Below are positions 8,211 to 25,049 of a DNA stretch of 29,209 nucleotides, in pieces. Both the position numbers and the translations under genes were made by a program. The stretch lies in the IMG/VR virus record IMGVR_UViG_3300042090_000847, positions 1-29,209 of that record. One strand, 5' to 3'. This DNA is from a virus. The first letter of the stretch is position 1. The number at the start of each line of letters is the position of its first letter. The notes under the pieces were generated by a model. It saw only the letters and a program-made list of their open reading frames with translations, was not told where the DNA came from and searched no databases.

Positions 8211-8587
8211 TAGTAACTAACCCCCTGATAGTCAGATGGTTGCTGTTGCTGCTGCATGAGCATGTTGGCAAGCGCAAGGTTTTGTTGGGTAGGCCCCACA
8301 CCACCCATATTCTGACCGTTTACATTAGGATTTTGTGCAGCACCCTGCTGCATCGCCTGTTGTGCAATGCCTGCGGGAAACTGCGCGGGCAGTTGGGGTT
8401 GCTGCTGTCCAGCTTGGGCCAGTGCTTTCGATAAAAGAGATGTGCCGGTAGATGTAATGGGATTTGACGCGGCAACCTGTTGTTGTCCGGGCTGAAGCGC
8501 TGCCAATCCCTGCTGGTAGTATTGGTTTAAATTTGATTGAGCGTTTGGGTCGGGTCCGCTCGATCCAGTAAAACTATAGAGGCTCAT
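8210..8587 (-). CDS. Small Gln-rich internal virion protein (125 aa)
   Basis: Starts MSLYSFTGSSGPDPNAQSNL and is dominated by Gln and Ala runs (QPGQQQVAAS, MLMQQQQQPS). There is no membrane segment or enzyme motif. It overlaps the 372-aa gene by four bases (start ATG at 8587 against the stop at 8584) and touches the 505-aa gene at 8210. In podovirus ejection clusters a short protein of this kind often accompanies two larger ones. The role as minor ejection protein is inferred from place and composition. Confidence 0.6.
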   Translation of the reverse strand: MSLYSFTGSSGPDPNAQSNLNQYYQQGLAALQPGQQQVAASNPITSTGTSLLSKALAQAGQQQPQLPAQFPAGIAQQAMQQGAAQNPNVNGQNMGGVGPTQQNLALANMLMQQQQQPSDYQGVSY

Positions 8588-9702
8588 GCCAGCCTCCCGT
8601 AATCCACCATGTCAAAACCGCTTTCATGTCGTATAACTGCTTCAGGAATAATTTTGATAACTTCGTCAGCCATGACGCCAATTCGCTTAATCTGATCCCA
8701 GATATATTCAAATTCATAAAGAGGGATACCGCTTGAAAGTTTCCCAATATTCCGGATATTCTTTTTCAGGCGTCTATCCGATGCCAAAATATTACCAAAT
8801 GCGCTTACGCCGCCAGCACCGGGCACTGCAGCGCCAAGCAAGGAAGTACCTAAACCAAAAAGGCCAGTTAACGAAGAATTGCTTGCCCCTACTTGTGCAT
8901 TATAAGAATTAAGCTGATCCTGATAAGCGTTTTGATATGCACCGATTACATTCGTCGGCGCTGCTGTGCTTGGGCTTGCACCGCTAAACTGCGGCAATGT
9001 GGGCTGCGTACCAGACATGAGCGACGAATAGAGACTAAGCGGCTCTTGATATTGTTGGGTGTATATCTGCGCTTGTTGCGCCTGATTTGCCAAAGCCGTA
9101 TTTGAAAGTTGTGATTGATAAGCGGCTCCACTTCCGACTGCCGTGTCCATCGCGTTTGAATAGGCTTGCTGTTTCTGTAGCCCATAATTCTGCATGGCAG
9201 TATTATAAGCTGCGCTTCCTTGGGGAATTCCTTCGTTAGCTAACTGGCTTTGAAGTTGGGCCTGTTCCTGTGAGAACTGAGGATCAAGGTATTGTGTCTG
9301 TTGCTGATAAATCGAGTTTTCATCATTGGTCAGATCGCCCTGTAAATCCTGTTGTGTTGGCGTTTGAGAAACGTTAGCCGCAAGATTATACGGCGTGTTC
9401 TGCATATTCGTGACATTATTAAGCGCAGTCGTTGCAGTGGTGCCTTGCTGTTGGACGTTGGCTTGATTGGTAGAAAGTATTTGCTGTTCAGCCGGAGATA
9501 AGGAAACATTCCCTGTAACGCTCGGCTGCGCCGCATTCGAGGTATCGACGTTATAGGAAATGTCGCCAAGAGGCGTATTCAGGTTTGGGTTTGTGAGCCC
9601 GAAGTTGAATAACGCGGTAGCTTGATTACTGGCGGTTTGGGCTGCGCCCTCAGCCGTAGGATCTGGTGCTGCTGGTGCTGATGGTGCTCCGCCAAGGCTC
9701 AT
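8584..9702 (-). CDS. Virion protein with C-terminal S74-like chaperone domain (372 aa)
   Basis: The N-terminus (PDPTAEGAAQTASNQATALF) and a Gln-rich helical body up to about residue 270 look like an internal or tail-associated virion protein. A short hydrophobic Gly/Ala segment (LFGLGTSLLGAAVPGAGG, about 280-297) follows. The end, from ASDRRLKKNIRNIG at 306, then GIPLYEFEYIWD and RIGVMADEVIKIIPEAV, matches the intramolecular chaperone (Peptidase S74) domain of tail spikes and fibres, which trimerises the protein and cuts itself off at the Ser of the SDRRLK motif using a nearby Lys. The domain here is only about 65 residues, so it may be a shortened form. It overlaps the GNAT gene upstream by 53 bases. 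Confidence 0.75.
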   Translation of the reverse strand: MSLGGAPSAPAAPDPTAEGAAQTASNQATALFNFGLTNPNLNTPLGDISYNVDTSNAAQPSVTGNVSLSPAEQQILSTNQANVQQQGTTATTALNNVTNMQNTPYNLAANVSQTPTQQDLQGDLTNDENSIYQQQTQYLDPQFSQEQAQLQSQLANEGIPQGSAAYNTAMQNYGLQKQQAYSNAMDTAVGSGAAYQSQLSNTALANQAQQAQIYTQQYQEPLSLYSSLMSGTQPTLPQFSGASPSTAAPTNVIGAYQNAYQDQLNSYNAQVGASNSSLTGLFGLGTSLLGAAVPGAGGVSAFGNILASDRRLKKNIRNIGKLSSGIPLYEFEYIWDQIKRIGVMADEVIKIIPEAVIRHESGFDMVDYGRLA

Positions 9703-10132
9703 CTAACCACTCACATTCATGCCGGAGCATGCTGTAAATTGCGCTATCTTTTCCTGTGTAATGAGCATTACGAGCTATCCCTTCGAGCTTAAAGCCCAGA
9801 CGCTCGGCAAACTCCCTTGCCCTTCTATTGGGCTTGGCGATGCTCAAAGCGACCCTCTTCACTTTAAGTTGAGAGAAGGGATATGCAAATAACGGCTTAA
9901 TGATATGCCTTAGGGCACATCTTTTGTCAAGTGAAGCTCCGCTGATTTCAATGGAGATTGGTAATCCTAAAATACAAGTGCGATAGTTATTATAAATAAC
10001 ACCACCCCTTATTTGGCCATTCTCTTGAATTCCTATCGCTATATACGGCCTAAAATATTTAAAATCTGGAATTCTAAGTTTTTCAGCAACCCATTTTCCG
10101 ATAAGCTCATCTTTGCCGTAAACAAGATTCAT
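9650..10132 (-). CDS. GNAT-like acetyltransferase in the tail cluster (160 aa)
   Basis: The core has an N-terminal IAIGIQENGQIRGGVIYNNY strand region, LKVKRVALSIAKPNRRAREF and FAERLGFKLEGIARNAHYTG, matching the GNAT fold with its acetyl-CoA binding loop (N-R-R-A near residues 102-105) and the usual GF..EG ending of the family. Related GNAT-like proteins are common among podovirus tail genes, where substrate and purpose are unknown. ATG overlaps the nozzle gene stop by ATGA. The last 17 residues (after CEWL) are encoded in the overlap with the next gene and may not be conserved. Confidence 0.75.
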   Translation of the reverse strand: MNLVYGKDELIGKWVAEKLRIPDFKYFRPYIAIGIQENGQIRGGVIYNNYRTCILGLPISIEISGASLDKRCALRHIIKPLFAYPFSQLKVKRVALSIAKPNRRAREFAERLGFKLEGIARNAHYTGKDSAIYSMLRHECEWLDEPWRSTISTSSTRSYG

Positions 10133-11667
10133 AGAACGCCGCCCGGCTCATAGACGTAATCAATACTTTGGAGGGAGGCTTTCATACCATTGGTCGATCC
10201 TGACACCCGGAGAGCTGCCGCATAACCTATTCCTCCTACGGCAAGCCAATCTTTATTAAGGGTAGGCGTTCCGCCCCAAGGAGTGATATCCCATGGGGAC
10301 GAATCCCATGGTGATCCCGATCCGGTAGAAAGGGCCGGGGCTGCCGGTCTGGTATCATTATAATCTGTGTCAAGAATATAAGAAAGTTTTACAATGTCTG
10401 TAGAAGCGATGATCGGACGAACATAGGTAAAATATTTCTGCTGTCCTAACTCTCCGAAATAATTAAAAGACGGCTTAACATCCCATGTAATCGCAGTATT
10501 GTTATCCGAACTTCCGGTATCAGCCACGACCACGGCACCATTTGTCCCAAAATAAAGAACATCCTCCAGAATATCCCAACATGCTGCATTAAAGGCATTA
10601 TTTTCAAAATTCCATGTAGACCATGCGCCCGTAATGGTATTCATGATGTATTGATATTGACGACTATTTTCTGTCTGGGGAACATTGATAATAAGTTTAT
10701 TGCCAAGCGGATAATAGACCGGCTGCCAGCCAAAATTAGCCATATAACTAGCCACGTCATTATTGATGAGATTAATAATATTATAGCTGAAAGCCTGTGA
10801 AAGATTTCTGTCAGTTGTTAATTCCTTGGCAAGAGATATGATCCCATCGGCGCATATGATTACATTATCGCTGCCCATTTTAACAAAACACCTACGTCCA
10901 ACCGGACGCCCGATAACAAATCTTCCGACAAGCGTGAAGGTGGAAGCAAAGCTCGGATCATATCCTTGATAAATGAGAACTTCGCCTTCCGAACTTAAAA
11001 ATACCGCATAGTCCTGAATACCGTTCGTATTATCAACCGTCCATGTCATCATTGCCATGAGATAGCCACCGAGGACCATAAGGGAACTAAGATCAAACAG
11101 CGTAGCAGCGCCCGCGATAGAATTAAGCGGTAGATACCATGCATGAAGGCTGTTTTTTTCCACATACCATAGACGGCTTTGAAAGGCGTTCACATGTATC
11201 AAGTTAGCCGTAGATACGCCTGTAATGGCACTTGTAACCTTCGACCAAGTCGTTCCATCATATTGGACAAGCGCATCGGCCCCATTGACCATATGGAGAT
11301 AATTACCCCCGGGCGTGGCGAAGTTAGTCCATTGCCAACGGTTATTGGTAAAACTGGAAAGTTTTGCACTTCCGACTGCACCCGAAGAGGTGACATCATA
11401 AATAGCGTTATTAGCTGCCGCCACCAATACTTGTGCTGTTGGAGAGCGGTAATGAGCAAGCGTTTCAACCCACCCCGTGATACCTGTCACCCAATTTGTT
11501 GATCCATTACGGCTGTCAACTGAAGTTGGCGTACAAAACATATTATCGAGAACCAATGCGAAATCAGGTGGCATTGATGCGATAGCGTCGCGTGCGTTTA
11601 ATCCCTTAACGGGGGCCGGAACGGAAGTTGTCTTTACGATCTGTTTTTTTGAGGTTTGTTGAAGCAT
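10129..11667 (-). CDS. Tail nozzle / DNA stabilisation protein
   Basis: A 512-aa protein beginning with a basic stretch and VPAPVKGLNARDAIASMPP, then LVLDNMFCTPTSVDSRNGS. These are hallmark words of a podovirus family that matches the SU10-like nozzle and P22 gp10-like packaged-DNA stabilisation proteins. The middle is made of repeated beta strands (for example LIYQGYDP, VIICADGIISL, YQYIMNTITGAWSTWNF) fitting a beta-propeller. A Trp-rich patch, SPWDSSPWDITPWGG, lies near residue 455. It would close the tail tube. AGAGGAAAAG precedes the ATG. Its start overlaps the 48-aa ORF. Confidence 0.8.
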   Translation of the reverse strand: MLQQTSKKQIVKTTSVPAPVKGLNARDAIASMPPDFALVLDNMFCTPTSVDSRNGSTNWVTGITGWVETLAHYRSPTAQVLVAAANNAIYDVTSSGAVGSAKLSSFTNNRWQWTNFATPGGNYLHMVNGADALVQYDGTTWSKVTSAITGVSTANLIHVNAFQSRLWYVEKNSLHAWYLPLNSIAGAATLFDLSSLMVLGGYLMAMMTWTVDNTNGIQDYAVFLSSEGEVLIYQGYDPSFASTFTLVGRFVIGRPVGRRCFVKMGSDNVIICADGIISLAKELTTDRNLSQAFSYNIINLINNDVASYMANFGWQPVYYPLGNKLIINVPQTENSRQYQYIMNTITGAWSTWNFENNAFNAACWDILEDVLYFGTNGAVVVADTGSSDNNTAITWDVKPSFNYFGELGQQKYFTYVRPIIASTDIVKLSYILDTDYNDTRPAAPALSTGSGSPWDSSPWDITPWGGTPTLNKDWLAVGGIGYAAALRVSGSTNGMKASLQSIDYVYEPGGVL

Positions 11668-11752: not shown

Positions 11753-12742
11753 CTAGCTTCCAAAACCCGTGTCCGGAACATTCTGCTGGTTTAATAATCT
11801 TATGCCACTCGCACTCGCGTTAAGCGGCAGGCTTCTATTGCCCCCGTCTCTCGCCATTATACGCTCAACCAAAAGATCATAGGTTCTTTTTTCTTCGCCG
11901 TAATCAAGCCCTTTGGCCCTTTTATACCGCCATATAATGCCAAGAGTTATGCATTCGTCATCGAGACAATAATTATCCGTATCAGCGGTCCATTTTGTTT
12001 GTAAAATTCCCGCTGTGCCTCCCGTAGACTGGCACCATCCATTTGAATAATACTCATAGACCTCTGAAGAGCCATTATCGCTGGAACTGAAGCCGGGGAC
12101 AGGATCAATTACAAACTGGTTATTATAAATTCTAAACCTTCTGCGGGGACCGGTAGGACTAATGCCTGATTTAAGAACCTGCCATTCCTGCGCATCCAGA
12201 GGACCGAGAAGTTGCCATTTAAAGGCTCTATCCCACCATGTCTGAGACATGAAATAGGCAAAATCAGACGGAAGAGGATAAACAGCTTGACCACAGAAGA
12301 AACTTGCATTTGTGGCTGTCGCAAGTGCATTCACACTCATGGTAATCTGGCTTGAGCTATCCACACTTACGATTGTTGTATCAACCGGAATGTAAGTAGT
12401 GGCATAAGGCAACATCGAGGTTGTAATGCCCGTCGTATTGGTTTTTATATTGGTGACAATAGGAGAACCTAACGTAAAATTACCTGTTAAGCCTGAGACA
12501 GAATTAATCGTAAAAAGATTCTGGCGTCGCAACGCAACCCAACCACCATTCGTACCAAACCCCTGATTATAGAAGTTTTTACCTTCCCGGTTTGCCAGAG
12601 CAAGAAGTTGCACGATCTGGGCGTCAGTATTGGAAATAATCTGGGTGGGAGGATTTTGGCCCAACCCCAGCTCATTATAGACATTCTGAATAATCTGAAG
12701 AAGTGTCAACTTTCCAGAGGAAAAGGCCAGACCATTTCCCAT
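11753..12742 (-). CDS. Head-tail adaptor protein (SU10/P22 gp4-like)
   Basis: A 329-aa protein with TLLQIIQNVYNELGLGQNPP, QIVQLLALANREGKNF, AVYPLPSDFAYFMSQTWWDR, LLGPLDAQEWQVLKSG and LDDECITLGIIWRYKRAKGL followed by DYGEEKRTYDLL. This is the familiar phage adaptor family that binds below the portal and receives the nozzle. An internal beta-rich insertion (about residues 75-150) separates the two helical parts. It lies directly before the nozzle gene, as expected for head completion. Start ATG at 12742 is followed by MGNGLAFSSGKLT. Confidence 0.78.
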   Translation of the reverse strand: MGNGLAFSSGKLTLLQIIQNVYNELGLGQNPPTQIISNTDAQIVQLLALANREGKNFYNQGFGTNGGWVALRRQNLFTINSVSGLTGNFTLGSPIVTNIKTNTTGITTSMLPYATTYIPVDTTIVSVDSSSQITMSVNALATATNASFFCGQAVYPLPSDFAYFMSQTWWDRAFKWQLLGPLDAQEWQVLKSGISPTGPRRRFRIYNNQFVIDPVPGFSSSDNGSSEVYEYYSNGWCQSTGGTAGILQTKWTADTDNYCLDDECITLGIIWRYKRAKGLDYGEEKRTYDLLVERIMARDGGNRSLPLNASASGIRLLNQQNVPDTGFGS

Positions 12743-12745
12743 GGA

Positions 12746-13114
12746 TTAGGCTGTCAGATTGGCCGACCACTGCGTTGAGGTGAGCTTTTTAAACGAAGCA
12801 GTTTTCTTCGTTGTCATATTAAAGCCAGCCCCGGCACCTCCGGCACCAATCGAAGTCGTGGACTCAAAGGGATAAACAAACATAGCGTTGGATGCCCCAT
12901 TGAAAACAACAACTTCACTGCCCGGATCGCAATTCGGAAGAACCACTCCCTTGCCACTTGCGGAAACTATCGAAACATAAGCTGTGCCTCCGGGTATAAG
13001 TGTTCCTGTTCCCAGAGTTGTTCCGGCCGCAGTTAAAGTAGATACTCCCCCACAAATTACATCCGCAACGGCAGGTGGGGTTCCAAGACCCACAAGATGA
13101 TTTTTAATAGCCAT
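12746..13114 (-). CDS. Small beta-rich virion structural protein (122 aa)
   Basis: Starts MAIKNHLVGLGTPPAVADVI and shows alternating strands (TAYVSIVSASGKGVVLPN, EVVVFNGASNAMFVYPF), with TASFKKLTSTQWSANLTA at the end. This pattern belongs to a small protein often found next to the adaptor and nozzle in podovirus-like genomes. A capsid or tail decoration role is likely, but its exact place is unknown. There is no Cys pair or membrane segment. It is separated from the upstream 218-aa gene by eight bases. Confidence 0.65.
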   Translation of the reverse strand: MAIKNHLVGLGTPPAVADVICGGVSTLTAAGTTLGTGTLIPGGTAYVSIVSASGKGVVLPNCDPGSEVVVFNGASNAMFVYPFESTTSIGAGGAGAGFNMTTKKTASFKKLTSTQWSANLTA

Positions 13115-13122
13115 AACGTCTC

Positions 13123-13779
13123 CTATTCAGTTGGTTGAATTTTGGGTCTGCGCCCGCGTTTCTTTGGTTCCTCACTATGACTTCCCATTCTTGCTCCTGC
13201 CTGCAAAGAGGCAATCTGCTGTTCAAGTATTGCCATACGGCGGTCTTTATCTTCATTCTCGCGCATAAGCTTAGAAAGCTGCACTGTAGCCATATTTGGA
13301 TGAAGAAAGGCATCGGCCTGATCGCGCATCTTGCGCCACTCCATGCCGAGCGCCACCGGCCCTGTTTGATCCGTAAGGGCGGCGATTTGCTCAACAGTAA
13401 AAATCTTGGAGGCCTTTAGTTCAAATACGCGCTTTTTATCAAGCGGAGGCCACATCTCAATAGGAGTACCATCGGGAGTTTGTTCTTTAGAACTTTTATA
13501 AGCCTCCCATTGACGCGGGAATCGATGCGTCCATTGGTTGCCGCGATTTCCTTCATCCGCCGTGAATCGGAATTTATTGGTTTTGGTGTTGTCGCCCGGA
13601 AACTGAAGTTCTATACAGATAAAATGCTCAAGAACGACCCGGCCCTCCATTTCTGATTTATATTCGTTTTTTACAAAATCATCGTCAAATGTCGCATAAA
13701 TGCCGGTATCATCGCCAAAAGAAGCCATGGTCCCGTTTTTAGTATTCGGGGGAAGTTTGGCGATAGCAAGATTATCCAT
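13123..13779 (-). CDS. Phage protein of unknown function with basic C-terminus (218 aa)
   Basis: It contains blocks I have met in phage structural regions: EHFICIELQFPGDNTKTNKF, FPRQWEAYKSS, DGTPIEMWPPLDKKRVFELK and KIFTVEQIAALTDQTG. A coiled coil (LMRENEDKDRRMAILEQQIA) follows, and the end, KKRGRRPKI, resembles an AT-hook, a minor-groove DNA-binding motif. This suggests a DNA-contacting or assembly protein, but the function is not known. It is the first gene after the glycosyltransferase fusion and may have its own promoter at about 13.80-13.83 kb. Confidence 0.65.
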   Translation of the reverse strand: MDNLAIAKLPPNTKNGTMASFGDDTGIYATFDDDFVKNEYKSEMEGRVVLEHFICIELQFPGDNTKTNKFRFTADEGNRGNQWTHRFPRQWEAYKSSKEQTPDGTPIEMWPPLDKKRVFELKASKIFTVEQIAALTDQTGPVALGMEWRKMRDQADAFLHPNMATVQLSKLMRENEDKDRRMAILEQQIASLQAGARMGSHSEEPKKRGRRPKIQPTE

Positions 13780-13832: not shown

Positions 13833-15254
13833 TTACATAAGGCTGGCAACATAGGGCAAAAGACCATCTCCATAAATCGTAATCTGCATTCCCATCTTTA
13901 CAAAATTACATGCCGCATGACGGAATTCTTCCGTTTGCGTTGCCATCCATGGCGCACAAGTAAATTTTCTATCATTAACCGTTATTTCCGTAATTTGCTC
14001 ATTATCATTAAGGGGCTGAGCATAAGCATGATTATTGCCGTTCCGGTAACTACTATCATATCCAAATAAGTGAATATCTGAAAACCCGAACAAATGGGCT
14101 AATCCCAAAGCCTTTAGTCCAACGGTGGAACCGCCGCTTATTAAAGCGGCTTGCATCTTTTTCTCTGCTAAAATATCCAATATTCCAGCAATAGAAGGAC
14201 ACCATATAATGATTTTACCGGCTTGCTTATTAAACAATGATGGATGGCATTGAGCCGAATAAAGGAGAAGGGCATCCGTTTTTTCAGGCACGAATTCAAT
14301 ATTTTCTTGCCGGGCATCGAGAATAATTTGTGCATGGGGAGATATGTCGTGCTCACAAAGATATCTAAAACTGTTATTTAAAGCCCATACTATAGCACCA
14401 CCTTCTTGCATGGCTTTTATATAGTGAAGGTTATCTTTTAAACTCGGCCCTCCTCCACATATAATCAAAGGTCTTTCATCATTGGCTTTATATTGGTTGG
14501 AAAGAATCTCATGTCCCGAAGACAGAGAGTTAATAATATTATCTTTTATTGTCTTTTCGTCCGTATTCCATACAGTTCTCCAGCTATGGATTGTTCCGCC
14601 GCCTATTTTCCATACATTCTCAACCCAATTTCCTATAACCTCATGGGGCCTTGGATGACCATGAAAGTAAACAATGCTTGTCCCCATCGGGATACCTAAA
14701 CTGGCCTGAACCTTAAAGCTTGCAAACTGTCCCGGAAATAGATCGTTTAAAATATCAGGTTTTTTATCTTTACGCGCAATCTCTATTAGCTCCTGATCGC
14801 CTCTCGGTAAATCATCAGGAAAGCCCATGTTTTCGAATAATTCCCATATATCATTGGTGGTATTTGCTCTCCACATCATCACCGAATTCTGCCATCTATC
14901 CGGATGATATATATCTCTCAAGAGAGCAAAATCACCTTTATAAGTAATGATATCATCCAAAGGCCCCACAATACAGGTATCAAGACCCATAAACACAATC
15001 TGATCATCATCATCAAAATGCCCGTCTTTAAAAACATAGGGTATATTCCACCATCCCTTTAATTTACCATGCAGTGGGCGTTTTGTAATACCTTCATGAT
15101 AAGGCTCCTCGTCATCGGTAAAACACACGAACGAGGCCTCCACCCCTTTAGCAAGGTTTCTGCCAACCATCTCATAGAGTTTTTCGGTGTATTCTTTACC
15201 GCGTTCACAATAATTATGGGCTTGAACACAAACGAAATGAAGCATTTGACCCAT
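13833..15254 (-). CDS. Glycosyltransferase-DUF115 fusion protein in the virion operon
   Basis: A 473-aa two-domain protein. Residues of about 5-215 look like a GT-A glycosyltransferase: SFVCFTDDEEPYHEG (41-55), DDDQIVFMGLDTCIVGPLDD with an LD-type sugar-nucleotide/metal motif near 91, FALLRDIY, RGDQELIE (151-158) and YFHGHPRPHE (196-205). Residues of about 258-470 match DUF115 (the 6-hydroxymethylpterin pyrophosphokinase MptE-like/Maf flagellin-glycosylation domain): LIICGGGPSLKDN (263-275), WALNNSFRYLCEHDI, GGSTVGLKALGLAHLFG, IHLFGYDSSYRNGNNHA and YGDGLLP. Maf proteins transfer nonulosonic acids to flagellin. The substrate here is unknown; a virion protein or host surface glycan is possible. 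It starts a few bases after a terminator and has no visible ribosome binding site of its own. Confidence 0.8.
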   Translation of the reverse strand: MGQMLHFVCVQAHNYCERGKEYTEKLYEMVGRNLAKGVEASFVCFTDDEEPYHEGITKRPLHGKLKGWWNIPYVFKDGHFDDDDQIVFMGLDTCIVGPLDDIITYKGDFALLRDIYHPDRWQNSVMMWRANTTNDIWELFENMGFPDDLPRGDQELIEIARKDKKPDILNDLFPGQFASFKVQASLGIPMGTSIVYFHGHPRPHEVIGNWVENVWKIGGGTIHSWRTVWNTDEKTIKDNIINSLSSGHEILSNQYKANDERPLIICGGGPSLKDNLHYIKAMQEGGAIVWALNNSFRYLCEHDISPHAQIILDARQENIEFVPEKTDALLLYSAQCHPSLFNKQAGKIIIWCPSIAGILDILAEKKMQAALISGGSTVGLKALGLAHLFGFSDIHLFGYDSSYRNGNNHAYAQPLNDNEQITEITVNDRKFTCAPWMATQTEEFRHAACNFVKMGMQITIYGDGLLPYVASLM

Positions 15255-15256
15255 AG

Positions 15257-15286
15257 AAAAAGGATAGGAAGCATACCCTTCCTACC
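15257..15286 (-). terminator. Intrinsic terminator after the capsid/decoration genes
   Basis: Read on the minus strand, GGTAGGAAG (15286-15278) pairs with CTTCCTATCC (15271-15262), with one bulged base and a six-base loop, and TTTTT follows (15261-15257). It ends the capsid transcript and lies three bases before the ATG of the glycosyltransferase fusion. A terminator directly behind the capsid genes is common in podoviruses and sets high capsid expression. Confidence 0.8.
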
Positions 15287-15310
15287 CTCTTCTCTACTAT
15301 CTTACAAGTT

Positions 15311-15883
15311 TTACGCGCCTTCGAGGGCCGAAAAATTGTAATAGACGTTTACCGTCGAAGCCCCGGCGGAAATCGTAGCCGTATTCTGAGTGCGTGCACC
15401 GAGAATCTGCTGGCCCGTCGAAGATACGAATTTAACACGCCCTGCTGTCGCAGAGATATAAACCGCACTCTGGGGAGAAGCGGCTACGGCTGTTTTAAGC
15501 GTAGCAGCCTGACCGCGAACCAAAAACCATGCATATTGCACAGAGTTAGCATTCGAGGTTACAGCGGTATATGCCAAAGCAACAGCAACACCCGTATTTT
15601 TAGATGTTCCAGCCACCGGAACCAAAACTACTGTATAGTTCTTATCCCATTGGTATAACAGGCCAACCGTAATAGTTGTGCTTACAGGAACAGCGAGAAG
15701 AATAAACGTGGCTTCGCCAAGCGTATTGTCCTGAGCTGTCATCATAGTACCGGGTTTAACCTCAACAGATACGCTCGGAAGAACGTTCGTTGTGCTTACC
15801 CACGGAGCACCGAGGGTTCCAGAAGTCGAAACCACCGAAACATCGGGTACACCGATTTTATTGTCTGCGTTTGTATAAGCCAT
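15311..15883 (-). CDS. Capsid decoration-type structural protein (190 aa)
   Basis: Starts MAYTNADNKIGVPDVSVVST, 12 bases after the major capsid gene in the same strand. The beta-rich sequence includes GTMMTAQDNTLGEATFILLA, TITVGLLYQWDKNYTVVLVP and YAWFLVRGQAATLKTAV, a familiar companion of this capsid type. Position, size and fold suggest a decoration or cement protein on the head surface. No membrane or enzyme motifs are present. The terminator follows it, so it is the last gene of the capsid transcript. Confidence 0.7.
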   Translation of the reverse strand: MAYTNADNKIGVPDVSVVSTSGTLGAPWVSTTNVLPSVSVEVKPGTMMTAQDNTLGEATFILLAVPVSTTITVGLLYQWDKNYTVVLVPVAGTSKNTGVAVALAYTAVTSNANSVQYAWFLVRGQAATLKTAVAASPQSAVYISATAGRVKFVSSTGQQILGARTQNTATISAGASTVNVYYNFSALEGA

Positions 15884-15895
15884 AGTGACCCCCCC

Positions 15896-16876
15896 TTAAG
15901 CGCCAAGGACGGCTTGTAAACGACGGTTTGCAACCGTCATGTTACCAGCAAATCCGATTAGTTTAACCATTGCGTCCTGATTGACCGCAAAGCGTTCATC
16001 GCCAAGCGGCTCAAAGAAACGACCCGTAGCAGGACGGAAGTAAATGTAATCCGTATTAAGGAAATACATCGTGTTCGTCGGCGCACCACCCCCCACACCA
16101 CCGTCAAGTATAACATCGCTTGTCATATATTTAAGCGACTGGAAACCTGCTGCGCCCTCTTCATTGGAATTGATCCGCTGAATAGCCTGCAAGCTCTGCA
16201 AATAGAACTTCCAATAGTTATTATCAGCAATAATCAAGTCAGGAGCATCGGCACCACGGACCTGCTGGACCCATACCCGATCCATATAGTCCAAGATGTT
16301 ACCAGCAGAAGCTGCCGCGCCACCAGTAGTCGCGGAAGAGAAAGCGGTATTCTGCCAGAAGGTATAAGTACCGGCATTAATACCACCCACTGTATTGGTG
16401 TTCGTCGCGGCAACAAGAGCCTGTAGACCACCGATTTGGCGTCCGCCATCCGCTGTACCATCCGAATAACAATCCAGAGAAGTGTTATTTGCCATGGTCT
16501 TTTCAGCGTTGGCAATACGGCCTTCGAGAAGGTCGATGATCGCTTCTTCACCTGAGTTCTGGATCATTTCCAGACCGGAGATAGAAACAGCTACCGCGCT
16601 TTGGGCATAATTGAACTCAGCACCCGTAAACACGTCCGAAGGACTGATATTCAGGACTTCATAGCCCGAATAACGCTTATAGGTGCCGTTTTCAGCGTAT
16701 TCGAGTTCCTGTACGATTGTACGTCCCCCGGATACCATCTTAACCTTGCCCTTTTTCTTCAGGCGGTTAAGCAAAGCATTATTTTTAGTGACGTTATCGG
16801 CCAATACGCCGGTACGGTTACGCAGCGTTGTGGTTACGATTTCCGTCAACGTCGAAGACGGATTAACTAGAGCCAT
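15896..16876 (-). CDS. Major capsid protein (HK97-type family)
   Basis: A 326-aa protein with the conserved words of a phage major capsid family: ALLNRLKKKGKVKMVSGGRT, then VQELEYAENGTYKRYSGYEV, DVFTGAEFNYAQSAVAVSIS, DAPDLIIADNNYWKFYLQSL, QRINSNEEGAAGFQSLKYMT and NTMYFLNTDYIYFRPATGRF. It has no long N-terminal delta domain, consistent with the separate scaffold gene directly upstream. It forms the procapsid shell. Strong expression is expected because a terminator closes the transcript two genes later. The start MALVNPSSTL is preceded by AGGAG. Confidence 0.9.
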   Translation of the reverse strand: MALVNPSSTLTEIVTTTLRNRTGVLADNVTKNNALLNRLKKKGKVKMVSGGRTIVQELEYAENGTYKRYSGYEVLNISPSDVFTGAEFNYAQSAVAVSISGLEMIQNSGEEAIIDLLEGRIANAEKTMANNTSLDCYSDGTADGGRQIGGLQALVAATNTNTVGGINAGTYTFWQNTAFSSATTGGAAASAGNILDYMDRVWVQQVRGADAPDLIIADNNYWKFYLQSLQAIQRINSNEEGAAGFQSLKYMTSDVILDGGVGGGAPTNTMYFLNTDYIYFRPATGRFFEPLGDERFAVNQDAMVKLIGFAGNMTVANRRLQAVLGA

Positions 16877-17942: not shown

Positions 17943-18307
17943 CCCAAAACCTTTTGAACCGCTTCTTTAAGCTGCGGCCTTACGTTAAAATCGCCCTTAA
18001 CTCCCCGTTCCATAGGGGTCTTATATTCCGCGTTGTTCCATTCATTCCCAACCACACTACATCTGCGGGCTTTTACTTCAGCAAGATATTTGCTCTTGCT
18101 GTCGTATTTCTTGCCATCAGCATGAGAAACCATACCGTGTATTCCGCCCGGCAAATCATCCCCAATCACATACGGCGATGATTTAATGGGCTTAGGCTTA
18201 AACTTGCTGTTTTCTTCGGCAATCTTTCTAAACTTTTCTTCATAAAGGACAAAAGCTTGCGCTCTTTGTTCCTTATTCAATTCTCTTAACGGCGTAACAA
18301 GAGACAT
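17939..18307 (-). CDS. Small phage protein with GNE motif (122 aa)
   Basis: Start MSLVTPLRELNKEQRAQAFV at 18307, where ATG overlaps the stop of the upstream gene (TAATG). The frame is open to 18559 but that extension overlaps the upstream structural gene in another frame and is rejected. The C-terminal half, GMVSHADGKKYDSKSKYLAE then RRCSVVGNEWNN, resembles a small phage protein common before scaffold genes, with a K-x-Y-x-S-K-S...GC..VGNE signature. The function is unknown. Confidence 0.7.
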   Translation of the reverse strand: MSLVTPLRELNKEQRAQAFVLYEEKFRKIAEENSKFKPKPIKSSPYVIGDDLPGGIHGMVSHADGKKYDSKSKYLAEVKARRCSVVGNEWNNAEYKTPMERGVKGDFNVRPQLKEAVQKVLG

Positions 18308-18912
18308 TAGATCGGCACTTCTTCCCACTGGAACGAAAACACAAATGCTGAAGTACAGGCAGCGGTAGTGTAAGAAGCCACATACTGACCGGGAGGCACG
18401 ATAATCGACCCATAAAGATCGACAACGATACCGGGCTGTAACCCATAACCAGTTGTGGCAAGAGAACCGACGCTTCCATAAGTTGCAAGAAGGATAGGAG
18501 TAGCAATTGTTGCGCTGGCGCTCCCGGTGGCCTTTGAAACAGGCCCACCGATCAAGCAATTTTGGGGAACAAGAGAGCCTGCGGCAGCGCCCGATCCCGC
18601 CATAATACCCACAGAACTTGCAACTGCGACAGCCACCTGACCAACGGCAAACCGGCGCATAACAAGATTAACTCCGGAATTTGAGGGGTTGGCTACCGCC
18701 AAGCCGGTAAAGGTAGTCGCCAGACCCGCCGTGGTCGTTACGGCCGCCTGATTGGCAAGAGTAAACATTGTGCCACGATAAGCAGCTTCATATCCCTGCC
18801 CGTGCAACTCATCAACAATCAATTGATTTTGATTGCCTTGGCGGACGGGGTTATTCGATACGCCATCGGCGGTTTTAAGGTTTCCGGTTCCGGTTTGTGC
18901 GCCGATCAACAT
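18307..18912 (-). CDS. Virion structural protein (201 aa)
   Basis: Begins MLIGAQTGTGNLKTADGVSN, then RQGNQNQLIVDELHGQGYEA and AAYRGTMFTLANQAAVTTTA. It ends SFQWEEVPI, with IIVPPGQYVASYTT before. This arrangement is typical of a widespread structural protein in phages of this class, with an N-terminal arm, a beta-sandwich and the EEVPI tail. A minor head protein is likely. The exact role is unknown. It starts 14 bases after the 62-aa gene, with AGGATATC upstream. Confidence 0.65.
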   Translation of the reverse strand: MLIGAQTGTGNLKTADGVSNNPVRQGNQNQLIVDELHGQGYEAAYRGTMFTLANQAAVTTTAGLATTFTGLAVANPSNSGVNLVMRRFAVGQVAVAVASSVGIMAGSGAAAGSLVPQNCLIGGPVSKATGSASATIATPILLATYGSVGSLATTGYGLQPGIVVDLYGSIIVPPGQYVASYTTAACTSAFVFSFQWEEVPI

Positions 18913-18926
18913 AAGATATCCTTTGG

Positions 18927-19115
18927 TTAGAGAAGTTCAGAGAAGTTGGGATTAATTTGCATGTTGGTTGGTTGAGTAAAAAAGGTGTAATCCTCATCGG
19001 TAATTCCGGCAATTTGCTTTAAAATATAAGTTTGAATTACCAGTTGTTGGTAAATCCTCTCAAGAGGACTTGAGCCAACTTGCGCAAGAGGTTCTGTATC
19101 GGGAGTTACAGGCAT
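18927..19115 (-). CDS. Free-standing copy of the PLERIYQ module (62 aa)
   Basis: The sequence PLAQVGSSPLERIYQQLVIQ, then TYILKQIAGITDEDYTF (residues 9-45), matches the last part of the SGNH hydrolase just upstream in 28 of 37 positions. The remaining tail, FTQPTNMQINPNFSELL, is unique. Small proteins with an LERIYQ-type start and ILKQ helix occur in this part of phage genomes. I read the module as a helical virion-binding or oligomerising domain. Only a weak ribosome binding site is visible, with a 64-bp gap upstream that may hold a promoter. Confidence 0.7.
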   Translation of the reverse strand: MPVTPDTEPLAQVGSSPLERIYQQLVIQTYILKQIAGITDEDYTFFTQPTNMQINPNFSELL

Positions 19116-19128
19116 TTAAGACCCAAGT

Positions 19129-19160
19129 AATTATTTTCTGAATACTATCCTTTTATTTAA
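19129..19160 (-). promoter_or_regulatory. Possible weak promoter upstream of the 62-aa gene
   Basis: In the 64-bp, AT-rich gap after the SGNH hydrolase gene, the minus strand reads TTGCGC, 16 bases, TAGTAT. The boxes are poor matches to the sigma70 consensus. It is listed because the gap is unusually long for this operon and lies before the capsid genes. Confidence 0.2.
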
Positions 19161-19179
19161 AAAGCGCAAGTGTAAAATA

Positions 19180-20457
19180 TCAATGTCCAATAAAAGTGTA
19201 ATCCTCATCAGTAATTGACGCAAGCTGCTTAAGTATTAAAGTGTTTATGAATATTCTCTGGTAAATCCTCTCAAGAGGGGTGGCACCCACTTGGGCAAGT
19301 GGCTGTGCGTTAAGGGGAAGAGAAGGAACAAATCCTTTTGGAGGATAAACGGGAATAGAGGGAGCAGAAATACTTTGAAAAAGATTGATAGAATTAAAGA
19401 CAGTTGGAGCATATACGGCACTGTATCCTGATTCATTGGGGTGAAGGCTATCGAACATATAACCATTAGAATTTGCTGTTGCCCAACTGCCGAAAGCATC
19501 ATAAACGTCGCACACCGCTAGGTTATTTGAGGCCGCTAAAGTATCAATCACCGCTAAATAACTTTGTTGTACAGGAATACTAATACCGCCGCTTGGGTTT
19601 GTGGGGCTTGGTTTAACAAGCAAAACATCGCCACCCGATGCAAGCGCCGCCGTAATTAAATCCTGCATATATGTTGAATAATTAGTGGTTCCAATACTAT
19701 TATTCCAGTCATTAATACCAAGGTCGATAATTGTTAGGGCTTGCCCCATATAAGCCAATCCATTGCATGGGCTATAATTATTTGAAAGATCACCATCAGC
19801 CGTCCACGTTTTTGAAGATGATCCCGTCCATCCACAGTTAATCATCGATACCCATGATTTAGAGCTATCATAGGCTTCCGCGCCGACGATATATACACCC
19901 CCTCCCGTACTCCAATTGATATTAAGTGTATTTGAACCGAGAGTGCCGGTGATTGTTGCGTTGCTGACTTTTGAAGCTCCCTGTGTATTGACGGTGGTAT
20001 TTGAACCGCCGTTGATGTTCATCGTAAACGACCCGGGGTTAAGCCCTCCGGCGGTGTCTTGAACATAAAAGACATTGAATGTATCGACATTCACAGTAGG
20101 TAAAAATGAAATTGCATTTGTATTCGTGGTGGCCGACATGGGATATCCACCAACTGAAAATGTAGGGTACGCCGCATTTGCCCATGCACTTCCAAACGTC
20201 AGTCGGGTATCAAAATATTGATAACCGACAAAACCGCCACCACTGGTTCCCACCCCCATCCAGCTATTCCATTGAGAATTAATTCCTGCATTATTGAATA
20301 AATCTGAAACAAGCTTAGGCCATGCAAAGGGGGGGATATTACCTCCGGCTGTCGAACCATAACCGAAAGTTGTGCTGTCTCCTACACAAACAACGCGAGC
20401 ATTGCCTGTACCTGCCTTAACACGGGCTAGCGCCGCTGTCCATATTGGCAAACTCAT
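19180..20457 (-). CDS. SGNH/GDSL-type hydrolase, virion-associated
   Basis: A 425-aa protein with the SGNH blocks: VVCVGDSTTFGYGS (22-35, nucleophile Ser28), LTIIDLGINDWNNS (241-254, GxND), and FDSLHPNESGY (335-345, catalytic Asp336 and His339). A beta-rich insertion (about 100-235) interrupts the hydrolase core. The C-terminal PLAQVGATPLERIYQ...TDEDYTF module (386-422) is shared with the neighbouring 62-aa protein. SGNH hydrolases in virions usually remove acetyl groups from capsular or lipopolysaccharide sugars. That function is inferred. There is no signal peptide. It ends and starts in tight junctions with its neighbours. Confidence 0.8.
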   Translation of the reverse strand: MSLPIWTAALARVKAGTGNARVVCVGDSTTFGYGSTAGGNIPPFAWPKLVSDLFNNAGINSQWNSWMGVGTSGGGFVGYQYFDTRLTFGSAWANAAYPTFSVGGYPMSATTNTNAISFLPTVNVDTFNVFYVQDTAGGLNPGSFTMNINGGSNTTVNTQGASKVSNATITGTLGSNTLNINWSTGGGVYIVGAEAYDSSKSWVSMINCGWTGSSSKTWTADGDLSNNYSPCNGLAYMGQALTIIDLGINDWNNSIGTTNYSTYMQDLITAALASGGDVLLVKPSPTNPSGGISIPVQQSYLAVIDTLAASNNLAVCDVYDAFGSWATANSNGYMFDSLHPNESGYSAVYAPTVFNSINLFQSISAPSIPVYPPKGFVPSLPLNAQPLAQVGATPLERIYQRIFINTLILKQLASITDEDYTFIGH

Positions 20458-20939
20458 TAATGCACCCTTTTTTGTTGGTATGGATATTCAAGAGCGAGCA
20501 ATATAGCTTTCATGTCGTCTTCATCCCGCAAGCGCCGAGCCTCTATAGCGGCCTGTCTCATTTCTTCATATAAAGCAGGTAAAGAGGCCTCTAGCTTGGA
20601 AAGCCTCTTTTGAAGAATTGGAAGAATGTCTTCACGGTGCTTTACTTCTATATTTTTAGGCAAAGCTACTTCTTGGATTATTTCCGCTATAGGCTCGTTT
20701 CTGACAAGCTTTTCTATCTGACTGCGAAGCGCCTGCCGCGAGGCAAGTTTATCACGTTCAATTCGTTCAAGTCTTTGATTTAGTTTAGATATTTCTTTTA
20801 AAGAATAATATTTACGTTTTTTCGATCCACCGTCATGGGTATCAGCGGTTGAAACACCCGAGGCATACCCCAAAGAAACCGCCAGATTTATGGTACTAAA
20901 CGAACCGAACCCAAAGGTTGTGATAGATGCGATAGACAT
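20457..20939 (-). CDS. Small virion protein with coiled-coil region (160 aa)
   Basis: The start MSIASITTFGFGSFSTINLA, then VSLGYASGVST, resembles a short N-terminal motif found in phage structural genes beside the next protein (GFGSF, LGYG). A Lys/Arg/Glu-rich helical region follows (SKLNQRLERIERDKLASRQA, then a second helix near 115-150, LSKLEASLPALYEEMRQAAI). It overlaps both neighbours by one base. It is probably a minor structural protein; no enzyme motif is seen. Confidence 0.6.
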   Translation of the reverse strand: MSIASITTFGFGSFSTINLAVSLGYASGVSTADTHDGGSKKRKYYSLKEISKLNQRLERIERDKLASRQALRSQIEKLVRNEPIAEIIQEVALPKNIEVKHREDILPILQKRLSKLEASLPALYEEMRQAAIEARRLRDEDDMKAILLALEYPYQQKRVH

Positions 20940-21883
20940 TAGGTCGCTTCAGTTATTGAAGTAGGAGCACTGGCACTATCAAGAGTATATGTTTTAGCCG
21001 TTGTAGTGCCGTCCCGTTTCTTGACAATCCATGTCGTGCTTGAAGTACTATGCTGACCCAAGAATTGATTAATGCCATACAGGGCTTGCGCCAAGGTGAG
21101 AGCGGCTCCCTGCGCAGCATAGCTTTCCGTCAAGGCACTCGTTCCATCGATCTTTGCCGCACCCCCTGCTGTAATGGCAAGAGAACTAAAATTGGATGGA
21201 AATGCCTGAGTTAAACTATAGCCGGTTTTGTCGTTATTTGTCGTGACCGTCACGCCTGTTGTGACAGAATTGACCGAACCATTAACATTGCCCGTAACCG
21301 TTGTAACACTCGCGGGAGTTGAAGAATTCAGGCTGGTTTTCATCGTTGCCGTGAAGTCACCGGCTGTTGGTGCATTCGTGAGATTGGTGACAGTCGATAC
21401 CGCGCCACCGGAAGTTGTAATTGCACCACTCGAAACAATCGCCGATGCTGCAATATCGTTAAATCCTGTGATATTCGTTGTTTTAGCGATGCTCAAGCCA
21501 AAGGCTACTGATTGATTATCGATTGCAGTAAGCTCAATTTCCAAAACGCAGGGGACCATATTTGTAGCCCCCTGAAGAAGTATGGTTACAAAACGCCCAT
21601 TACCCGAAGCTATAGCAGCATTGGGAATATCAAGTCGATAAAGACCCTTGTTATTAGTACTGTCAATCTCAACAAAACCACCAGAACTATAAGCTCCGGT
21701 GGCGGTTTGTGTAACAAGACTAATTGCTACGGGACTTGTTTTAGGAAATGTATAATATGCCGTAAGGCTTCCAGAATTATATGCAAGACCGGTTAATCCT
21801 GCGCCAGTTGTCACAGAACTATTCTGGATAAAAATATTAATAGTTTGAGATGTCGCCCCAGCGAGAATAGATAATTTAGCCAT
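20939..21883 (-). CDS. Virion structural protein of the SQTINIFIQ family (314 aa)
   Basis: Starts MAKLSILAGATSQTINIFIQ, then SSVTTGAGLTGLAYNSGSLT, AYYTFPKTSP, GGFVEIDSTNNKGLYRLDIP and GATNMVPCVLEIELTAID. These words occur in a widespread phage structural family whose N-terminal half is a beta-sandwich like those of baseplate or fibre-anchoring proteins. The second half is Thr/Ser/Gly-rich and repetitive, ending with QALYGINQFLGQH and a polar tail. It lies between portal and SGNH hydrolase. Surface or fibre attachment is inferred. Confidence 0.68.
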   Translation of the reverse strand: MAKLSILAGATSQTINIFIQNSSVTTGAGLTGLAYNSGSLTAYYTFPKTSPVAISLVTQTATGAYSSGGFVEIDSTNNKGLYRLDIPNAAIASGNGRFVTILLQGATNMVPCVLEIELTAIDNQSVAFGLSIAKTTNITGFNDIAASAIVSSGAITTSGGAVSTVTNLTNAPTAGDFTATMKTSLNSSTPASVTTVTGNVNGSVNSVTTGVTVTTNNDKTGYSLTQAFPSNFSSLAITAGGAAKIDGTSALTESYAAQGAALTLAQALYGINQFLGQHSTSSTTWIVKKRDGTTTAKTYTLDSASAPTSITEAT

Positions 21884-22577: not shown

Positions 22578-25049
22578 CTAATGCACCCCTACTATATTTC
22601 CATTTTCATCGCGCATGATCTGTTTAGGGCGCGCTATCGCCTGTGTCAGATTTTGATGAGCATTCATCATGCCTTGATGCGATTGTTGAATACCCTGAAG
22701 TGTATTTCTCAATTCAGATATAACAGTCGTCATTAAATCATTCAGATTGGGTCCAAGAATATCGCCAGTGCTTGCAGGAATTGATGGATCGTTACCGCCT
22801 TCGGCAACTGCCTTAGCCCCGGCCGAAATCTTGGCAACAATAATTTTAGTCTCACTCTCAAGTTTTGCCTTAGCCATATCAAGTTGACCCTGTAGCTGGA
22901 TTTTAAATTTCTCAACCTCGGCATCGACCTTTCCTTGATTGGCATCCACTTGAGCCTGCATGGTCAGTCTCTTCTGTTCATCATCCGATTTCTGTTTTTC
23001 AATTGCTAGGTCTGCCTGTAATCGTGCCTGCCCTAATTGTTGTTCTCCCTGAATTTTCATCATCTCAGGATTCGGCTTCGGGGGACCGTCGGCATCCTTT
23101 TCAAGTTTATGAATTGCAACTTCAAACGCTGTCTCAAGTTCTTTACCCACCTTAAAGCCGCGAATGCCAAATTCCAGCATTTTACCAAGCAATGGCGCGA
23201 GGTCAGGATTCTGCACGGATTGTGCAGCTTGGATAAACTTACCAGCGGCCTCGAGGAATTCAACCCGGGCAGCCTTGTCAGCCTCCTGATCTACCTTGAG
23301 CGTACTATCGGTTTCAATGTCGATCTTGTAGCTTAGCGTAATCTCATCGCGCAGGAGCTTTTCAATCTCTTCCCATGTAGGATTCTCCATTAATTCGTCC
23401 ATGTCCTCTTGATCACATTTCTGGAGCCAGTCGGGCAGTGGCGGAAGCTGAGGTGGTTGGGCGGGCGGCATTCCATGTTGCTGAGGCTGCTGTTTCTGCA
23501 TTTGCGCGAATTGCTGCAAGGTTTTCATTCTGAACTGTACTAATTGCTTCTCGGCCTCAGTTAACAACTGCACACCGCAAATCTTCTTGATGGTTTCTAT
23601 GCTGAAATGATTGGCAATAATCTCGGTGCCAATCTTAACCAAATCCCTGCAAAACCGCCTTACTTGCTCCTGCTTATCGTTAAGGCGCATTGTGCCGAAA
23701 TTGCTTTTGATATTCTGTGCTGTAGCCGTCTCGTCAGGATCAGACTGGCCACGCATAATGTCGGCGGACCCGCTAATCTCATATAAATCCTGCTTTACTT
23801 TCTCACGTGCCTCGTAAAGCCCAAGCAATGTTTGAAGAATTTCCTCCATTGGTAAAAGAGCCATCACGCTCTTTAACCCACCCTTTTCAGCAAAAATAGC
23901 CCATTGTTCGACGGGAATAAGCTGGTTTTCCACTCCCTCGGCCAATAATCGCCCTATACCGGGTGCAGAAGCGTCATAGACGCCAGCTACTTTAACAGCC
24001 CGCGTAATAGCCCCTATACGGCTGGTAATCTCATCCAGTTCGCTGGCTTGGTCTTGCCATTCGATGTAATCAGGGACAGGGATCATATCGTCATTGGCAA
24101 GCGTAGCATAGAGGGGCTTGGGGAACGGCCAGAAATCCTCTAGCTGGAGAGGGTCGTTCTGCTCATCCAAAGGCCCATGCTGATAATCCTTGTGAACCCA
24201 TAAGACCTTTTTATCTTCTTTGTCCCAAATCTCATAAATAGTGGCCTTTTTCTCAACTTCATCATATTTGTTATCCTTTAAATCGTGAGGGGAATAATCG
24301 AGAGTAATATCCCCACCAATTTCCTCTCCAAATCGCTCTTTGAGCTCATCGCGGGTTAAATAGACTTTCCGCCAGCAAGCCGGAACTTCATCCCATGTGC
24401 GGCCGAAACAGTGTCCAAAGTCCTGCCAATGCACATAATCCCAGCAAATTACTTCGTTTTCAATATCCTCGCCTCCAGCATCTCCTGCGTCGGTGTGAGG
24501 ATCGGCTTTTTTTCCAGCATTTCCTTCATCATCTTCAATATTATCGGTGATTTCTTCGCCTTCGTCAGCGACTTCTTCATTCTCATTCTCCGTCTTATCG
24601 TGAAAATGCGGCTCATATCTGGCCCACACAAGACCTCTGCCCGGCAAAAGCCTATCTGTGACTGCCTGTCTTACGGCATCCCCAAAGCTTTCAGTGATAA
24701 AATAAGTAATCGAACGCTCCAGCACCATTGAACTTATGCGGCCCAGATCGTCTTTGTCGCGAAAGCGTCTCTCAATATCAGGTTTGGGGTTTTGTCCGAA
24801 CAGGGCGGGACGGGCGCTTTCAACAACAGACCAGAGAATGTTAAAGCGAGGAACTTTTTGTTCTCGGGGGCTGCGGTCGTCCTTGAACCGCCTGAGTATC
24901 TTTTTGCCCTTTTCTTCCCATTGCTTGCTTTTGCTTTCATAAAACCTTATTTCCTGCACCCACCGCTTAACCTTACGCGCTTCACCCAAAGCAGCTGCAA
25001 GGCCATCCTCATTAGCTTCGGTAGTAACGGAAGAACCCAGACTTGCCAT
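22578..25049 (-). CDS. Portal protein (P22-like, podovirus type)
   Basis: An 823-aa protein with EKGKKILRRFKDDRSPRE, RFNILWSVVESARPALFGQN, then PKPDIERRF near 84-96, and GRGLVWARYEPHF, the N-terminal signature of large podovirus portals. Residues of about 151-199 form an unusually acidic insertion (ENENEEVADEGEE, NIEDDEGNAG). GSADIMRGQSDPDETATAQN lies near residue 420. A Pro/Gln-rich stretch is near 515-535 (QKQQPQQHGMPPAQPPQLPP), and a long coiled coil at about 690-770 (QARLQADLAIEKQKSDDEQK) forms the barrel-like tail. Twelve copies would make the vertex ring for DNA packaging. Start overlaps the large terminase stop (TAATG). Confidence 0.85.
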   Translation of the reverse strand: MASLGSSVTTEANEDGLAAALGEARKVKRWVQEIRFYESKSKQWEEKGKKILRRFKDDRSPREQKVPRFNILWSVVESARPALFGQNPKPDIERRFRDKDDLGRISSMVLERSITYFITESFGDAVRQAVTDRLLPGRGLVWARYEPHFHDKTENENEEVADEGEEITDNIEDDEGNAGKKADPHTDAGDAGGEDIENEVICWDYVHWQDFGHCFGRTWDEVPACWRKVYLTRDELKERFGEEIGGDITLDYSPHDLKDNKYDEVEKKATIYEIWDKEDKKVLWVHKDYQHGPLDEQNDPLQLEDFWPFPKPLYATLANDDMIPVPDYIEWQDQASELDEITSRIGAITRAVKVAGVYDASAPGIGRLLAEGVENQLIPVEQWAIFAEKGGLKSVMALLPMEEILQTLLGLYEAREKVKQDLYEISGSADIMRGQSDPDETATAQNIKSNFGTMRLNDKQEQVRRFCRDLVKIGTEIIANHFSIETIKKICGVQLLTEAEKQLVQFRMKTLQQFAQMQKQQPQQHGMPPAQPPQLPPLPDWLQKCDQEDMDELMENPTWEEIEKLLRDEITLSYKIDIETDSTLKVDQEADKAARVEFLEAAGKFIQAAQSVQNPDLAPLLGKMLEFGIRGFKVGKELETAFEVAIHKLEKDADGPPKPNPEMMKIQGEQQLGQARLQADLAIEKQKSDDEQKRLTMQAQVDANQGKVDAEVEKFKIQLQGQLDMAKAKLESETKIIVAKISAGAKAVAEGGNDPSIPASTGDILGPNLNDLMTTVISELRNTLQGIQQSHQGMMNAHQNLTQAIARPKQIMRDENGNIVGVH

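Follow-up and report, generated by a model that had tools for sequence, protein, structure and literature searches.

Enzymes resembling either half of the protein studied here are known from bacteria. GlyE of Streptococcus pneumoniae (5gvv) is a GT8-type protein O-glycan extender whose substrate is a bacterial adhesin, and the bacterial Maf proteins (5mu5; PseD) act on flagellin. Maf carries an N-terminal degenerate Rossmann-like domain and a C-terminal helical bundle, and the acceptor rules of Maf-type enzymes are unknown, with no sequon (PMC11339370). Few phages are known to have glycosylated virions. For the mycobacteriophages Che8 and Rita, both glycosyltransferases encoded by the phage and glycans attached to capsid proteins are reported (the excerpt of PMC11256854 citing Freeman et al. 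2023); the phage described in the same excerpt has its glycosyltransferase genes near the 3' end of the genome, and the excerpt describes no Maf-like or cement-linked cassette. In phage P1, PmgO and PmgQ were both non-essential in a CRISPRi screen (PMC10695390). We found no description of a Maf-like enzyme in phage virion operons in the literature searched, which covered journals and preprints incompletely; homologues from uncultured phages are already present in BFVD as 'MptE-like'.

We analysed a stretch of viral DNA of 29,209 nucleotides, hereafter the window, in which one gene encodes a glycosyltransferase (GT) domain fused to a DUF115 domain. Its features are as follows.

13833..15254, minus strand: GT-DUF115 fusion gene, 473 aa, from open reading frame calls and domain matches
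14598..15245, minus strand: predicted GT-A domain, residues 4-219, GT8-like, phrog_1962; homologue of P1 PmgQ
14979..14987, minus strand: GLD (residues 90-92), replacing the family DLD (DxD metal motif) and paired with Ile71 in place of an invariant Lys
13836..14582, minus strand: predicted DUF115/PF01973 Maf-like domain, residues 225-473, from profile and conserved motifs

The reading frame of the fusion gene is intact, and its true start may be Met4 (15245), because relatives start at this residue. Another contig encodes a protein 100% identical to that of the window and full-length relatives reach identities of up to about 45%, so that chance and assembly error are excluded as the origin of the fusion. 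The preliminary description had placed a GT-A and a DUF115 domain in one 473-aa protein, and this was borne out: residues 17-216 match the phrog_1962 glycosyltransferase family (8e-30), and residues 244-405 match PF01973 (5.7e-27; 95 bits against a curated cut-off of 34.6). An AlphaFold model of the whole chain, made with 55 sequences, has a mean pLDDT of 95.0 and a pTM of 0.84. Its top Foldseek matches are GT8-type enzymes, namely GlyE, the best match, which has no DUF115 domain, and glycogenin, together with Maf 5mu5 (2.2e-8). Fold and family profile were thus both found for the GT half, and the structural match of residues 258-470 to DUF115 on which the earlier account depended is present, in the form of Maf. 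A domain search identified no membrane-targeting domain in the protein.

PF01973, formerly DUF115 and currently named 'MptE-like', covers Maf as well as the pterin kinase MptE of archaea and related proteins, and the equation of DUF115 with Maf therefore required testing. A profile of the phage DUF115 domains matches Maf at 2e-16, MptE at 1.3e-4 and Cst-II at 0.034, so that MptE is not the closest relative within the family. The window protein matches Maf 5mu5 in phmmer (1.5e-5), and its sole NCBIfam match is to the Maf-type PseD (8e-5, reaching 6e-13 in the relative L111). Maf shares with the fusion the central PF01973 domain and its GPS, D, GG-TVG and LFG-D motifs; in the window GGGPS, D313, GG-TVG, LFGYDSS, D400 and H409 are kept, and the catalytic-type motifs are conserved across 55 relatives. 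Two family residues are changed in the window, H352 to Cys and S334 to Ala, and Maf 5mu5 itself has no His at the H352 position in the profile alignment. The N- and C-terminal domains of Maf are absent from the fusion, the N-terminal half of which is GT8-like and the chain of which ends with DUF115. The description of this half as Maf-like thus holds for its profile affinity, Maf being the closest relative, and does not extend to the flanking domains or the flagellar context. Since both of these are absent, the fusion is not a Maf, yet in its working it appears to resemble a Maf-type protein glycosyltransferase to which an extension domain has been added.

The GT half departs from its family at the DxD motif, where the first Asp is lost (D90G, giving GLD) and the second, D92, is kept. 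Lys71 and Asp90 are present in 62 of the 66 GTs compared, and both are lost in four (the window, L204, L080 and L166). Equivalents of D153 and H198 occur in 66/66, and that of D92 is also retained as far as it was counted. The joint loss of Lys71 and Asp90 requires at least two changes on the tree and looks like a coupled subtype switch and not random decay, possibly a switch of the metal site. Because the first Asp of DxD is lost, coupled to loss of the invariant Lys, the GT half of the window may be altered or inactive.

We identified the following genes and signals around the fusion.

22578..25049, minus strand: portal protein (phrog_12082, 1e-197)
15896..16876, minus strand: major capsid protein, SU10/Mx8 type (phrog_9953, 7e-123)
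15311..15883, minus strand: p49, 190 aa, beta-rich, predicted capsid cement/decoration protein; candidate acceptor
15253..15297, minus strand: hairpin of terminator type with a trailing U run, lying between the p49 and fusion genes, from folding
13123..13779, minus strand: p50-like virion-operon protein, downstream border of the slot (phrog_20268; synteny)
12746..13114, minus strand: c7, small Ser/Thr-rich protein of the virion operon (composition, synteny)
11753..12742, minus strand: head-tail adaptor, p51-like (phrog_6013, 1e-44)
10129..11667, minus strand: tail stabilisation protein, p52-like (phrog_5107, 4e-125)
9650..10132, minus strand: GNAT-family protein, conserved beside p52, including in phages without DUF115

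This operon, which corresponds to the head module of Mx8/LUZ24-like podoviruses, has the order terminase, portal, scaffold, capsid, p49, fusion, p50, c7, adaptor, tail stabilisation protein, GNAT and S74 protein. The fusion gene lies, as first reported, between capsid and tail genes, with the major capsid (15896-16876) and cement-like (15311-15883) genes on one side and the head-tail genes from 13123 downwards on the other. Mx8, Mx9, phiGT1, pCB2047-C, RHph_N2 and their kin share this arrangement over the stretch that starts with terminase and portal, includes capsid and adaptor, and ends with the tail stabilisation protein and GNAT. The hairpin upstream of the fusion gene was identified by folding alone (-24.4 kcal/mol for the stretch, z -4.2) and was not called by a pattern scan. 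We considered the GNAT gene as a sugar acetyltransferase; this is unlikely, as it adjoins the tail stabilisation gene even where DUF115 is missing, and its counterpart in phiGT1 is annotated as a head assembly protein. Downstream, at 8584-9702, the window encodes a virion protein whose C-terminal part is a chaperone domain of the S74 endosialidase type (PF13884, 4e-9).

We surveyed the distribution of the fusion with a DUF115-motif scan, giving 67 loci, and a fusion-profile scan, giving 80. DUF115 occupies the same slot, between cement protein and head-tail genes, in 138/138 loci that hold DUF115 and both flanking markers, a count made after removal of known repeats, with at least one contig, that of L042 and L205, counted twice and a true number of about 135. 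The survey advised in the preliminary description thus shows the fusion and its variants to be common, and syntenic within one phage lineage of uncultured podovirus contigs. Unlike Maf, the phage DUF115 domains have a GT8-like or methyltransferase partner, no flagellin, and a constant place in the virion operon. Among the 138 loci, 46 encode GT-DUF115, two the reversed DUF115-GT and nine a neighbouring GT gene, while 81 are without this GT; the reversed order was observed in L133 (2619-4154) and in the slot of L244. Many DUF115-only forms carry a C-terminal methyltransferase, and several GT-DUF115 forms bear Methyltransf_24 or FkbM domains, or an N-terminal GT2. Along a tree built from 102 DUF115 domains there are at least 10 switches of GT state, which, with the existence of fused, reversed and neighbouring forms, argues for functional coupling of GT and DUF115. 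As judged from these sequences, DUF115 and not the GT is the constant part of the slot cargo.

The sugar-related occupants of the slot comprise Methyltransf_24 and FkbM methyltransferases, GT2, GT8, GDP-mannose 4,6-dehydratase and a hexapeptide transferase, the last in L192. In L240, DUF115 shares the slot with a Methyltransf_24 protein, a GT8-like protein and a GDP-mannose 4,6-dehydratase (1e-103); in L268 its companions there are weakly GT-like genes and a gene resembling a methyltransferase. In L202 (6189-7392), where DUF115 was not detected, a slot protein without a Pfam hit resembles a sialyltransferase-type domain by eye and is accompanied by a methyltransferase. In Sulfitobacter phages the slot position, immediately behind the capsid gene, is taken by HNH endonuclease genes (L081 1088-1693 and L082 4989-5564), and the site therefore accepts cargo unrelated to glycans.

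A survey blind to DUF115, anchored on capsid and tail stabilisation queries, recovered DUF115 in 39 of 106 slot-spanning contigs, a fraction that rests on the best 80 matches of each anchor scan and so describes the relatives nearest the queries; an alignment of all p52 proteins was too diverse to serve as a scan query. DUF115 is absent from the slot of all twelve named phages with this head module (Mx8, Mx9, BUCT555, ppBjS10J-1, ctMlz233, phiGT1, pCB2047-C, RHph_I3_18, RHph_N2, EBPR podovirus 2, Mwe-JY13 and 45A6). Direct searches for DUF115 in four of these were negative, and tblastn of the DUF115 half against 50,697 named-phage records gave no match. The possibility that the fusion came from bacteria was considered as well; searching genomes with its profile, a narrow scan that does not imply absence of the fusion from bacteria, returned one relative, a contig of a Chloroflexota metagenome-assembled genome that is itself this phage module. 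This contig (JAURLM010000081.1, our L167), a phage head module with DUF115, represents either a possible lead to a host or a binning error.

The gene immediately upstream of the slot, p49, encodes a predicted beta protein (model pLDDT 79) containing 22.6% Ser+Thr. The 16 leading PDB matches of this protein all come from phage heads, as capsid-cement, decoration or head-fibre base proteins, the best with an E-value of 1.1e-3 and a probability of 1.00, so that no cement match reaches 1e-3. We compared phages with and without DUF115 in pairs matched by capsid similarity, in tests of composition and co-assortment that are only partly corrected for phylogeny. The Ser+Thr content of p49 is higher in the DUF115-positive phage in 23 of 30 pairs (p=1e-3); most of this shift is due to Thr (+2.4 points), and Lys, Gly and Asp also change. 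No Ser+Thr shift was identified in p50 or in the adaptor, stabilisation and scaffold proteins, that of c7 is not significant, and that of the capsid protein is small (0.7 points, p 0.04). At matched capsid similarity, the similarity of p49 tracks the presence of DUF115 in both directions (26/34 and 77/80 focal phages). This two-way co-assortment is absent for p50, the neighbour on the other side, and for the adaptor and scaffold, and the stabilisation protein shows a weaker association in one direction. Linkage through adjacency possibly accounts for part of the association between p49 and DUF115. We infer that p49 is the best candidate for the acceptor.

For the donor sugar, we searched the window and 29 DUF115-positive relatives for NeuB and CMP-synthetase families and found both in one of the 30 contigs, the DUF115-positive, 66-kb L199; the window, a 29-kb fragment, has neither. 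L199 encodes PseB (8.5e-109), PseI (7.3e-98), a WbuX-type amidotransferase (4e-83), WbuZ (8e-51) and a Pse-associated methylase, as well as a PseC-like aminotransferase and a CMP-synthetase-like protein. Since PseB and PseI fall slightly below the NCBI equivalog cut-offs and the last two matches are weak, a pseudaminic-acid pathway is probable on this contig. The Pse-like genes lie about 30 kb from the virion operon, on a stretch that also holds ribonucleotide reductase, helicase and AAA ATPase genes. The same contig (L332, 6464-14772) groups the Pse-like genes with amidotransferase, acetamidino-type and methylase genes, and carries two DUF115 copies flanking p50. In all, counting the GDP-mannose 4,6-dehydratase of L240, sugar-donor genes were found in two relatives. 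A relation of the methyltransferase fused to DUF115 to the Pse-associated methylase was unsupported (hhalign probability 1.3%). The donor would probably be a nonulosonic acid.

From these features we infer an enzymatic activity, its donor and acceptor, and a benefit to the phage. The virion operon of the Mx8/LUZ24-like podovirus lineage would contain a conserved 'glyco-slot', with the fusion gene as its variable cargo. In the cytoplasm, the Maf-like transferase (PF01973, with a putative GT42-type fold) would modify Ser/Thr on a virion protein soon after its synthesis. The sugar attached would most likely be pseudaminic acid or another activated nonulosonic acid, and the first candidate for the acceptor is the cement protein of the capsid, whose gene directly precedes the fusion gene (15311-15883). 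The fused GT8-like domain would contribute one more sugar to that glycan, by adding or supplying it, and in relatives methyltransferases or further GTs would replace or extend this domain. The phage head would thereby acquire a coat of glycans, with donor sugars normally derived from the host. We lean towards this reading, in which the modular cassette of the slot places O-glycans on the capsid surface, the cement protein being the leading acceptor candidate and nonulosonic acid the probable sugar. The virion glycosylation proposed at the outset is thereby supported and extended, with glycan, donor and acceptor standing as proposals. Only tentatively do we generalise to a large, mostly uncultured podovirus lineage with an exchangeable cement and Maf-like cassette, swappable GT and methyltransferase domains and a nonulosonic-acid coat on the head, some members of which would make the sugar themselves.

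Several alternatives were weighed against the glycosylation of the head. The enzyme might instead modify host surface sugars (LPS, capsule or flagellin) late in infection, for example keeping released virions off debris or excluding other phages, with the slot simply a convenient late-expressed site. Bacterial Maf does act on flagellin, and its fold is also that of a Campylobacter sialyltransferase; the slot tolerates unrelated cargo such as the HNH endonucleases, and the upstream hairpin and low GC of the gene are moron-like. We nonetheless consider host modification unlikely, in view of the lack of a detected membrane-targeting domain, the invariable position within the virion operon and the co-assortment with the cement gene. 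An acceptor elsewhere in the virion, such as the tail adaptor, c7, the S74 protein (8584-9702) or the major capsid protein, would imply a role in attachment and not in shielding of the head. In the window c7 and the adaptor contain 22% and 18% Ser/Thr, respectively, but the shift in matched pairs is clear for p49 only and the adaptor lacks co-assortment in both directions, which makes such an acceptor improbable.

Two further readings concern the protein itself. The window copy could be a decaying relic of a GT-DUF115-methyltransferase form that has lost its methyltransferase and whose catalytic residues are eroding, as a C-terminal extension is present in its closest neighbours on the DUF115 tree (in L091 this is a methyltransferase), its branch is long, and K71I, D90G and H352C have accumulated. 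Against this, the frame is intact, the model is confident, D92, D153, H198, GPS, D313, D400 and H409 are kept, and the exact coupling of the Lys and Asp losses resembles a subtype switch; decay is accordingly judged very improbable. Least probable, to the point of being barely credible, is that the DUF115 half is an MptE-like pterin diphosphokinase and the fusion metabolic. This reading draws on the Pfam name, the 'MptE-like' names in BFVD and a fold match in the PDB, to 8sd5 (E 4.7e-6), but the profile comparison favours Maf by 12 orders of magnitude and the partners of the domain are GTs, a sugar dehydratase and methyltransferases. The public name 'MptE-like pterin kinase' on phage proteins may thus mislead.

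Under the preferred reading, glycosylation of the capsid surface, enzyme and likely acceptor would be adjacent and vary together in many natural domain combinations, making acceptor recognition testable in small proteins. Phage P1 perhaps offers a tractable split version. PmgQ, of phrog_1962 type, matches the GT half at 28% identity, and PmgO, annotated as a sialyltransferase and encoded in the same operon, matches the DUF115 profile (hhalign 2e-6), so that P1 seems to hold the GT and DUF115 pair in split form. The P1 pair differs in being encoded by separate genes, in another type of phage and outside the capsid-cement slot. The P1 loci are L328 (1093-1755) and L325 (1474-2175) for PmgO and PmgQ.

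We additionally observed a 4-kb stretch between the portal and scaffold genes of the window (18307-22577), which among the loci compared clusters only with a near-identical contig. It encodes a GDSL-type esterase (19180-20457; PF13472, 8e-18) and two proteins rich in Ser, Thr and Gly (20939-21883 and 21876-22577).
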